64,000 nucleotides of DNA, taken from contig NZ_FNKQ01000003.1 in NCBI RefSeq assembly GCF_900100875.1, positions 310,001 to 374,000 on the forward strand, written 5' to 3'. Made by a program: the position numbers and the translations under genes. This document shows positions 4,970-57,862 of the stretch, one piece after another (the stretch's first letter is position 1; each line of letters opens with the position of its first letter). Source of the DNA: Halopelagius longus (GTDB lineage: Archaea > Halobacteriota > Halobacteria > Halobacteriales > Haloferacaceae). A model generated the notes under the pieces. The model made no database searches. It saw only the letters and a list, made by a program, of their open reading frames with translations, and was not told where the DNA came from.

Positions 4970-5042
4970 GGGCTCGTAGTCTAGGGGTTATGACGCGTCC
5001 CTTACAAGGACGAGATCGGTGGTTCGAATCCGCCCGAGCCCA
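4970..5042 (+). tRNA. tRNA-Val (anticodon TAC)
   Basis: The sequence folds as a cloverleaf: acceptor GGGCTCG pairs with CGAGCCC, the anticodon stem CGTCC pairs with GGACG around loop CTTACAA, and the T arm contains GGTTCGAATCC. The anticodon is TAC, so it reads Val codons. The discriminator is A5042 and CCA is not encoded. Its last 22 nt are repeated three more times downstream. Confidence 0.95.
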
Positions 5043-5364
5043 TGTTTCTTCGGCGAACGAAGTGAGCCGAGAAACATCTATCGAGGGCGATTCGAAGCAG
5101 GGAGCGAACGGAGTGAGCGACCGAGGTTCGAATCCGCCCGAGCCCACTAAAATCCGTGAGCGACAGCGAACGGTATTTTCGTGACGAGAGGGCGGTTAGA
5201 ACCTGACGACGAGTGAGCGTAGCGAACGAAGTCGGCGTGGTTCGAATCCGCCCGAGCCCATGATTCTGCGGCGAACGAAGTGAGCTGAGAATCATCTACC
5301 GAGGGCAATTCGAAGCAGGGAGCGAACGGAGTGAGCGACCGAGGTTCGAATCCGCCCGAGTCTA
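5043..5364 (+). repeat. Three tandem tRNA-Val tail units, each with two hairpins
   Basis: Copies of the tRNA-Val 3' end (GGTTCGAATCC through the acceptor strand) lie at 5125-5146, 5239-5260 and 5343-5364. The original is at 5021-5042, giving spacings of 104, 114 and 104 nt. The first two copies are exact and the last ends GTCTA instead of GCCCA. Each unit opens with a perfect or near-perfect hairpin, for example ATGTTTCT...AGAAACAT at 5042-5077. It continues with an inverted partial copy of the tail (GGGCGATTCGAA) that pairs with the tail itself across a loop containing GAGCGAACGGAGTGAGCGA. No gene is visible in this stretch. Confidence 0.85.
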
Positions 5365-10068: not shown

Positions 10069-10142
10069 GCCGCCTTAGCTCAGACTGGGAGAGCACTCGA
10101 CTGAAGATCGAGCTGTCCCCGGTTCAAATCCGGGAGGCGGCA
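10069..10142 (+). tRNA. tRNA-Phe (anticodon GAA)
   Basis: A cloverleaf with acceptor GCCGCCT pairing with AGGCGGC, D arm TAGCTCAGACTGGGAGAGC, anticodon stem CTCGA/TCGAG around loop CTGAAGA (anticodon GAA), and T arm CCCGGTTCAAATCCGGG. The discriminator is A10142 and CCA is not encoded. A run of seven T residues and GTATAA lie about 25-35 nt upstream and may include the promoter. The gene borders the island at 10245-16413. Confidence 0.95.
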
Positions 10143-10258
10143 CTTCTCTGAACCCGACCGCCGAGCGAAGCGAGCACGGCGGGTTCTGTAAGTGGTACCC
10201 GACCGGATTCTGAACCAGCGAGCGTCAGCGAGTGAGGTTCAAATCCGGGAGGCGGCAC
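10143..10258 (+). repeat. tRNA-Phe tail unit with two hairpins
   Basis: The last 22 nt of tRNA-Phe (10121-10142) recur exactly at 10236-10257, 115 nt downstream. The unit holds hairpin one, GAACCCG...CGGGTTC with loop GAGCGAAGCGAGC, and hairpin two, CCGGATTCTGAACC pairing with GGTTCAAATCCGG of the tail copy across a loop containing GCGAGCGTCAGCGAGTGA. The architecture matches the units after tRNA-Val and tRNA-Ser although the arm sequences differ. The tail copy overlaps the left end of the island's direct repeat. Confidence 0.82.
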
Positions 10259-30735: not shown

Positions 30736-31614
30736 ATGCTTCGACTCGCGGTCGCCACGGAGCGCCGGACGTTCGAGCGAATGCGCGACCCCCTCGGGGC
30801 CCGCGGCATCGACGTGGCCCACCTTCCGGCGAAGGAACGGGCGATTCGGCTCACCGACGCGCCGACGCGGGAGTTCGACGTCGGGTTCGTCTACCCGCCG
30901 CGACTGATGGAGGGCGGAGCGCTCTCGGCCCTGTACGACGTTCCGTGGGTCAACGGCCGCGAGGCGGTGCTCACCTCCCGGAACAAAGCCGGCGTCGTCG
31001 CGCGACTCTCGCGGGCGGGGCTTCCGGTGCCCGAGACGCGCATGGTGTCGAACCCCGCAGACGAGAGCGACGTGCGCGACGCCGTCTCCGGACTCGACTT
31101 CCCCGTCGTCGTCAAGCCGAACTCGACGACGCGCGGCGTCGGCGTCGCGAAGGCGGCGGACCTCGATTCGCTCCTCGGCGTCGTCGATTACCTCGACCTC
31201 GTCCACGACTACCGCGCGACGGGCGATAAGTCGTACCTGATTCAGGAGTTCCTCCCGGAGGCGCGCGATTACCGCGTCATGGTCGTCGAGGGCGAGGTGG
31301 TCGGCGGCGTCGAACGCCGACTGTCGGCAGCGGCCTTGGCGGAGGGGCGGTGGAAGCACAACGTCCACCGCGGCGCGGAAGCCGTCGGCGTGGACGTGCG
31401 ACCCGAGCACCGCGAACTCGCCGTCTCGGTGGCCGAGACGCTCGATATCCCCTACCTCGGCGTGGACCTCTTGGAGTCCGAGGGGCGGACCGTCGTCTCG
31501 GAGACGAACGCCCGGCCGACGATAGACGACGCGACGAAGTACGAAGCGGACTTCTGGGACCGACTGGCGGCACTGATACGAAAGACGGCCGACGAACGAG
31601 ACGGTAGAAACTGA
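30736..31614 (+). CDS. RimK-like ATP-grasp ligase
   Basis: A 292-residue ATP-grasp enzyme. After an N-terminal Rossmann-like domain with NGREAVLTSRNKAGVVARL, the ATP-grasp core shows FPVVVKPNSTTRGVGVAKA (the phosphate-binding Lys and loop), IQEFLPEARDYRVMVVEGEVV, and the metal ligands in VDLLESEG and ETNARPTIDDA. This is close to the RimK/LysX group, which adds amino acids to carboxyl groups, for example Glu to ribosomal protein S6 or LysW. The substrate is not evident. The position after an L10e gene makes a ribosomal or cofactor substrate an idea only. Confidence 0.85.
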   Translation: MLRLAVATERRTFERMRDPLGARGIDVAHLPAKERAIRLTDAPTREFDVGFVYPPRLMEGGALSALYDVPWVNGREAVLTSRNKAGVVARLSRAGLPVPETRMVSNPADESDVRDAVSGLDFPVVVKPNSTTRGVGVAKAADLDSLLGVVDYLDLVHDYRATGDKSYLIQEFLPEARDYRVMVVEGEVVGGVERRLSAAALAEGRWKHNVHRGAEAVGVDVRPEHRELAVSVAETLDIPYLGVDLLESEGRTVVSETNARPTIDDATKYEADFWDRLAALIRKTADERDGRN

Positions 31615-57347: not shown

Positions 57348-57428
57348 GCCGGGATGGCCGAGTGGTAAGGCGCACGCCTGGAAAGCGTGTTCCCTTTGGG
57401 ATCCAGGGTTCAAATCCCTGTCCCGGCG
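57348..57428 (+). tRNA. tRNA-Ser (anticodon GGA)
   Basis: The acceptor GCCGGGA pairs with TCCCGGC, the anticodon stem CACGC pairs with GCGTG around CTGGAAA (anticodon GGA), and there is a long variable arm (TTCCCTTTGGGATC) as expected for Ser. The discriminator is G57428 and CCA is not encoded. Its last 22 nt are repeated downstream three times. Confidence 0.95.
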
Positions 57429-57862
57429 CTTCTCTAACTTCTAACCCCCGAGCGAGGCGTTTATCGCCGAGCGTACGCGGTAGAAGTTTGCAAGCGATTA
57501 CGACGGGATTTGAACCCTACCAGTCGCGCGCAGCGAACGTAGTGAGCGAGCACGTCTGGTTTCGGTTCAAATCCCTGTCCCGGCGCTTCTTCGGAAACTG
57601 ACCGCCGAGCGAGGCGTCTCGTCGCCGAGCGACGCCGGTCGAGTTCGGTGAACGTCTACGGACGGATTCGAACTAGGGAGCGACTGAAAGGAGCGACCGT
57701 AGTTCAAATTCCTGTCCCGGCGCTTCTCTCACTTCTAACTCCCCAGCGAGGCGTTTCATCGCCGCGAGTACGCGAGTAGAAGTTTGCGAGCGGTTACGAC
57801 GGGATTTGAGCCAACGAGCAGATCTTCGATTTGCGAGTGAGGTTCAAATCCCTGTCCCGGCG
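57429..57862 (+). repeat. Three tandem tRNA-Ser tail units, each with two hairpins
   Basis: Tail copies (GGTTCAAATCCCTGTCCCGG plus CG) are at 57564-57585, 57701-57722 (two changes) and 57841-57862, spaced 157, 137 and 140 nt. Each unit begins CTTCT. Unit one has a hairpin (CTTCTA...TAGAAG with GGCG/CGCC inside), then CGGGATTTGAACC, the inverse of the tail. This pairs with the tail copy over a loop carrying ACCAG...CTGGT and CAGCGAACGTAGTGAGCGAG. The other units follow the same plan with drifted sequence. The last 50 nt before the next gene start another CTTCT unit that is cut short. Confidence 0.85.

Follow-up and report, generated by a model that had tools for sequence, protein, structure and literature searches.

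What are the structured repeats that follow some tRNA genes of Halopelagius longus, and why does each of them end in a copy of the 3' end of the tRNA in front of it? The question is raised by the tRNA-Val(TAC) gene in a 64-kb stretch of this genome (the window; positions 310001 to 374000 of contig 3 of the 3.87-Mb genome, here G000). An earlier note, made from the sequence alone, had described three copies of the tRNA-Val tail (positions 52 to 73) behind this gene, and these were found where it had placed them (Table 1), the start-to-start spacing counted from the tRNA tail at 5021 being 104, 114, and 104 nt. The third copy has two mismatches, both at its end (GAGTCTA). Upstream of each copy lies an inverted partial tail, a first hairpin is present in every unit, and a loop motif lies at 5102 to 5120 in unit 1 and at 5320 to 5338 in unit 3, all as the note had stated; near-matches to this motif number four in the 64 kb, against 0.07 expected. 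The same plan recurs, again as claimed, behind both other tRNA genes of the window, tRNA-Phe with one unit and tRNA-Ser with three, the last of which is followed on its 3' side by the beginning of another, truncated unit. A unit is ~100 to 160 nt long, lies directly behind the tRNA gene on the same strand, and comprises two hairpins, the first immediately 3' of the tRNA end and the second formed by the inverted partial tail (the arm), a loop rich in purines, and the copy of the tail. Rfam identified only tRNAs in the window, and the covariance model R1 gave one further match at 31040 to 31104 on the minus strand, which is coding-like and was taken as chance.

Table 1. tRNA genes and the units behind them in the window (window positions; R1, covariance model), with two tandem duplications elsewhere in the genome (contig positions)
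Feature	Position	Strand	First hairpin	Arm	Loop	Tail or tail copy	Support
tRNA-Val(TAC) gene	4970-5042	+				5021-5042 (tail, positions 52-73)	ARAGORN, RF00005
Val unit 1	5043-5146	+	5043-5076	5085-5096	5097-5124	5125-5146 (0 mismatches)	R1, 61 bits
Val unit 2	5147-5260	+	~5149-5179	5190-5203 (imperfect)		5239-5260 (0 mismatches)	R1, 20.8 bits
Val unit 3	5261-5364	+	5260-5295	5303-5314		5343-5364 (2 mismatches)	R1, 56 bits
tRNA-Phe(GAA) gene	10069-10142	+					ARAGORN, RF00005
Phe unit (single)	10143-10257	+	10150-10186	10203-10216 (one extra base)		10236-10257	R1, 25.2 bits
tRNA-Ser(GGA) gene	57348-57428	+					ARAGORN, RF00005
Ser unit 1	57429-57585	+		57505-57516		57564-57585	R1, 52 bits
Ser unit 2	57586-57722	+		57664-57673		57701-57722 (1 mismatch)	R1, 49.6 bits
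Ser unit 3	57723-57862	+		57801-57812		57841-57862	R1, 30.9 bits
Tandem tRNA-plus-unit duplications (L037, L049)	G000 C3:459985-460566 and C3:307207-307765						

All 45 RF00005 matches of the H. longus genome were then considered, the genome being covered through searches and through the sequence around its tRNA genes, and a copy being defined as the last 20 nt of the tRNA's own sequence found with at most 4 mismatches within 1,400 nt downstream. Such a copy is present on the same strand behind 23 to 24 of the 45 genes, typically ~120 nt away. In total there were 33 downstream same-strand copies, none inverted, and four upstream, all four belonging to just two tandemly duplicated tRNA genes, and the array is therefore not a product of chance. 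In five genomes from four families, G122, G083, G007, and G143 being sampled at ~30 tRNAs each, 73 of 154 tRNAs were followed by a copy no more than 600 nt away (≤5 mismatches), compared with four upstream and nine inverted copies, counts from which older units may be missing because detection required similarity to the own tRNA. Over all loci examined, the median distance to the copy end was 122 nt. An exact core, GATTTGAACC-N(12-42)-GGTTCAAATC, was found in 56 of 145 Halobacteria genomes and its reversed control pattern in none, a count that understates the genomes with units, since H. longus itself has no exact match. In a set of 295 genomes of the phylum, the core occurred in 22, all of them Halobacteria, and in none of ~240 genomes from the remainder of the phylum. 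Searches with R1 gave 26 to 61 matches (E of ≤0.01, both strands) in each of the five genomes, and of the listed matches on the sense strand, 22 of the 28 in H. longus and 39 of the 42 in G007 shared the strand of a listed tRNA and lay no more than 800 nt behind it (<1% by chance). Three of the leftover matches that were examined (L281, L283, and L291) adjoin intron-containing tRNAs of 173 to 179 nt, absent from the tRNA list and, judging by sequence, presumably tRNA-Trp. The units are a widespread, fast-changing repeat class behind roughly half of the tRNA genes in haloarchaea.

The limits of the copy are sharp. Across 172 units, identity between tRNA and copy was 0.28 at position 51 (near background), 0.77 at position 52, 0.88 at position 53, and 0.87 to 0.99 across positions 54 to 73 (0.91 at position 73), after which it fell to 0.59, 0.49, and 0.37. 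These limits delineate the repeat as the T-loop, the 3' strand of the T-stem, the 3' strand of the acceptor stem, and the discriminator base. The 3' limit coincides with the site at which tRNase Z acts in tRNA maturation, before CCA; an encoded CCA follows none of 229 tRNAs and none of 189 copies. The units do not have the make-up of tRNA pseudogenes, as the D-arm and anticodon-arm body is absent and identity is at background before position 48. The observation in the earlier note that the 5' part of the tRNA is missing holds for the units of the window and fails at two loci behind tRNA-Phe, in Halogeometricum limi (L113) and H. pallidum (L111), where a degraded tRNA-Phe body precedes an insert and then the tail, a layout that looks as if the T-stem of a tRNA copy had received a hairpin insertion.

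The copy also follows the allele of its own genome. Where the same tRNA has different alleles in two genomes, the copy agreed with the tRNA of its own genome in 1,526 comparisons and with the other in 55. When each unit and position was counted a single time, it agreed with its own in 567 of 608 cases and with the other in 26. The tRNA-Val tail, for instance, exists in the variants TTCGAATCC, TTCGACTCC, TTCAACTCC, TTCGATTCC, and TTCAAATCC, which are matched by the copies and often by the arms as well.

The pairing of arm and tail was assessed in several ways. When the arm was placed by the invariant T-loop bases alone and the variable (masked) positions were then scored, 59% of the masked positions paired with the own tail and 45% with permuted tails (standard deviation, 1.5; maximum, 50%). 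When 73 units drawn from many tRNAs and species were aligned, the arm-tail helix comprised 14 pairs, with 84.6% standard pairs and 84 two-sided changes, compared with 36 in shuffles (reached in 0 of 500). The covariation score, a check that the earlier note had proposed, was 0.265, compared with 0.154 in shuffled alignments (0 of 500) and at most 0.135 in slid controls, showing that each arm belongs with its tail. Cassettes that are alike but stand on different tails point in the same direction: in 20 of 23 pairs, the own arm-tail combination was better than the swapped one, by a mean of 5.2 kcal/mol per pair. Compensatory change as such, which the note had claimed, is thus evident, both in the covariation and in one clean double change between the first stems of Val units 1 and 3 (TGTTTCT/AGAAACA versus TGATTCT/AGAATCA). 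The selection that the note deduced from it does not follow from this alone, since independent births of units with an inverted tail copy would by themselves give covariation, which therefore does not separate selection from re-copying of the arm. A full acceptor/T-arm minihelix in each unit received only partial support, as the acceptor half is partly paired: 4 of 5 positions matched in 40% of the units, compared with 29% with foreign tails. A conserved bulged base in the hairpin was present in a minority of the units only. Tolerance of G-U wobbles, a weak test of RNA versus DNA, gave a P value of 0.0017 over all positions and values of 0.08 and 0.39 in the core.

The loops carry an apex motif, RCGNAGY, that is strongly biased to one strand, with 104 occurrences in the tRNA sense and three in antisense; with GA flanks on both sides, there were 53 sense and no antisense occurrences. 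With these flanks, the motif could give a C(GNA)G triloop on top of tandem G-A pairs. The strand bias favors the strand of the transcript and suggests that a single-stranded sense molecule matters, either a transcript or sense-strand DNA. T-rich sequence follows both tRNAs (T fractions, 0.60, 0.65, and 0.51) and copies (0.48, 0.58, and 0.46), in line with the finding that hairpins and T stretches terminate transcription in Haloferax volcanii (PMC7237163). In that species, two RNA 3' ends have been mapped downstream of tRNA-Pro (PMC7237163); in the H. longus genome, tRNA-Pro is followed by a unit. Apices of the GAGCGAACGGAGTGAGCG type were also seen in plain hairpins away from tRNAs (L003, L010, L001, and L002), twice followed by a T run and GGTCCAG, and these look like a haloarchaeal terminator.

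The earlier note knew of no description of such a repeat class. A search of mainly open-access literature gave no account of the haloarchaeal units; the same layout of arm, loop, and tail has, however, been described in Escherichia coli as the tyrT/tyrV repeats or RtT RNA (RF00391; rttR). The repeats behind tyrV are 178 nt long and terminate in AATCCTTCCCCCACCACCA, which corresponds to the final 19 nt of the tRNA and with which an upstream GGGGAAGGAT pairs, and the annotated rttR ends at 1287066, exactly at the end of the first tail copy. The Rfam consensus has the arm-tail stem and a loop with gucgAGCGaAGcgAGA. Like the haloarchaeal units, the RtT repeats are arranged in tandem directly 3' of a tRNA gene, end in a copy of its 3' end, and have an upstream arm that pairs with the tail; the GAGCG..AGCGAG stretch of their structured loop can be counted among the likenesses. 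They differ in their length of 178 nt, in a long near-identical sequence, in a copy that includes an encoded CCA, and in having been seen here at one tRNA locus, whereas the haloarchaeal units lack CCA, lie behind many tRNAs, have tailored arms, and are exchanged between loci. The RtT model gave no match on the Val array at an E value of ≤10, and its cutoff of 45 bits was reached in none of 59 Halobacteria genomes, in which the five best of the weak matches, on inspection, all lay away from tRNA genes; between RtT and the haloarchaeal unit models there was no significant sequence match in either direction. Judged from these comparisons, the architecture is the same, and by model score the units are not members of the family; the likeness may reflect either common descent or convergence.

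Other known repeats are less similar. Attachment sites of integrative elements likewise involve a direct repeat of the tRNA 3' end downstream, from the T-arm to position 73, but the units have no intervening element and are instead 100-nt, structured, noncoding tandem repeats with a covarying inverted arm; the 64 to 260 nt between tail copies leave no room for an integrase gene and cargo. Integron attC arrays consist of short cassettes, each ending in a hairpin in which structure outweighs sequence; the haloarchaeal cassettes differ in that they contain no gene and obtain their tail from the tRNA. REP/BIME-type palindromic repeats and the palindrome-associated transposable elements (PATEs) of haloarchaea (PMC3119063) are also short, noncoding, intergenic hairpin repeats, but the units are tied to tRNA 3' ends and carry host-tRNA sequence.

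The number of units changes between relatives. Behind tRNA-Val orthologues with conserved upstream genes, there are zero, one, two, or three units. In Halobaculum, H. saliterrae (L122) has no unit, and the flank that comes after position 73 of its tRNA comes after position 73 of the copy both in a one-unit relative (L086, with an array identical to that of H. gomorrense, L104) and in a three-unit relative. Empty and filled sites at the exact tRNA end were also seen between H. longus and a congener for tRNA-Tyr and tRNA-Gly(CCC). Within single genomes, near-identical cassettes that begin exactly at the tail end occur behind different tRNAs, as in G007 behind Lys(TTT), Arg(CCG), and Arg(TCT), where the main difference is the arm. 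Some arrays are displaced from their tRNA. With tails matching at 20 of 20 positions, the Arg(CCG) and Leu(TAG) arrays of H. longus lie 28 kb and 10.6 kb downstream (C1:40614-68616, L278, and C2:68863-79646, L279), the former preceded by a 13-nt partial tail, CCCGTCGGGTCCG, and the Arg(TCG) array of G007 lies 55 kb downstream (L292). Integrative elements have probably inserted between these tRNAs and their arrays. A similar displaced array was noticed in G143 (L288).

The explanation that we favor, tentatively and with somewhat less than even confidence, is that the units are RtT-like tRNA-trailer cassettes that are cotranscribed with the tRNA, processed at a tRNA-like 3' end, and spread by recombination. 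Read-through transcripts of the tRNA gene would include the unit, in which arm and tail would pair to imitate the acceptor/T-arm end. tRNase Z would then cleave twice, once behind position 73 of the tRNA and once behind position 73 of the copy, and so release a short RNA whose 3' end resembles that of a tRNA, as the rttR annotation in E. coli has it. Arrays would spread and shrink through recombination between the repeated tails, and either selection or re-copying could keep arm and tail matched. Because about half of the tRNAs lack units and relatives differ in the units that they have, the function cannot be essential. If this holds, about half of the tRNA genes across an archaeal class would bear an undescribed structured trailer element, and the isolated RtT oddity of E. 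coli would become a recurrent design, with hundreds of natural variants in which to test the role of the tRNA 3'-end copy. The repeat is tractable, its sequence keeps step with a host gene, and it bears on tRNA 3' processing, on the landing sites of integrative elements, and on tRNA annotation.

The main rival of these trailer cassettes is a mobile DNA hairpin element, which we regard as possible and clearly less probable. It would produce exact empty and filled sites with the same flank in relatives, near-identical cassettes behind different tRNAs of one genome from the exact tail end onward, a duplication of the own tail whatever the cassette, and a fixed orientation. However, identical empty sites would also result from loss by recombination between direct repeats, the units have no enzyme linked to them, and plain insertion does not explain how the arm comes to match each new tail. 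Moreover, the 10 viral contigs with the exact motif were bacterial-looking and none resembled a haloarchaeal unit, although a search by exact motif would miss diverged carriers; a plasmid search with the Ser array gave two short matches. A mobile repeat family with target-matched ends, in which the moving cassette duplicates the tail of the new tRNA and gains an inverted inner arm, seems to us unlikely; if true, each insertion would re-create a hairpin specific for the new host tRNA. Trailer RNA and mobile DNA element may also both be true, the units spreading as DNA and being tolerated or used as RNA.

Units could also be maintained without any function, if template switching at hairpins gave rise to them, gene conversion in the polyploid cells kept their tails identical to the tRNA, and quasi-palindrome templating corrected the arm to the tail. 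Tail and arm do follow the tRNA of their own genome, the units are dispensable, and double template switching would be expected to leave tail, hairpin, inverted tail, loop, and tail in just this order; yet a strand-specific loop motif (104 to 3) that is conserved between families is unexpected of neutral hairpins, and a sharp limit at position 73 is unexpected of conversion. We consider such upkeep improbable. We give even less credence to back-up terminators, whose hairpin and T-rich stretch would stop read-through of tRNA genes. Each copy is followed by T-rich sequence, similar hairpins with TTTTT runs occur elsewhere in the genome (L003 and L010), and such signals terminate in H. volcanii (PMC7237163), but a terminator would need neither an exact tail copy to position 73 nor a fitted arm, and a T-rich stretch is already present after the tRNA itself. 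It is very improbable that the units are decayed scars of viruses or plasmids attaching at the tRNA 3' end, the outcome that would have reduced the repeat class proposed in the earlier note. Integrative elements do seem to use these sites, as the exact tails of the displaced Arg(CCG) and Leu(TAG) arrays indicate, but the displaced arrays suggest that the units predate integration, and the units are ~100 nt long, noncoding, and covarying, with one structured plan that half of the tRNAs share across distant families. The class is real and its structure maintained, at many tRNA loci and in related genomes.

Some further arrangements were noted. In H. longus, tRNA-Asp and tRNA-Arg(GCG) are each tandemly duplicated together with their unit, with periods of 377 and 368 nt (Table 1), as expected of recombination between repeated tails. 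A lone unit with a tRNA-Met-like tail (G000 C3:298757-298811; L282) lies near Met and Asn tRNAs in the opposite orientation. Within the window, between 25821 and 26914, three stretches of ~180 to 195 nt match one place in L117 and L122 with 80% to 89% identity and are probably a small gene family.
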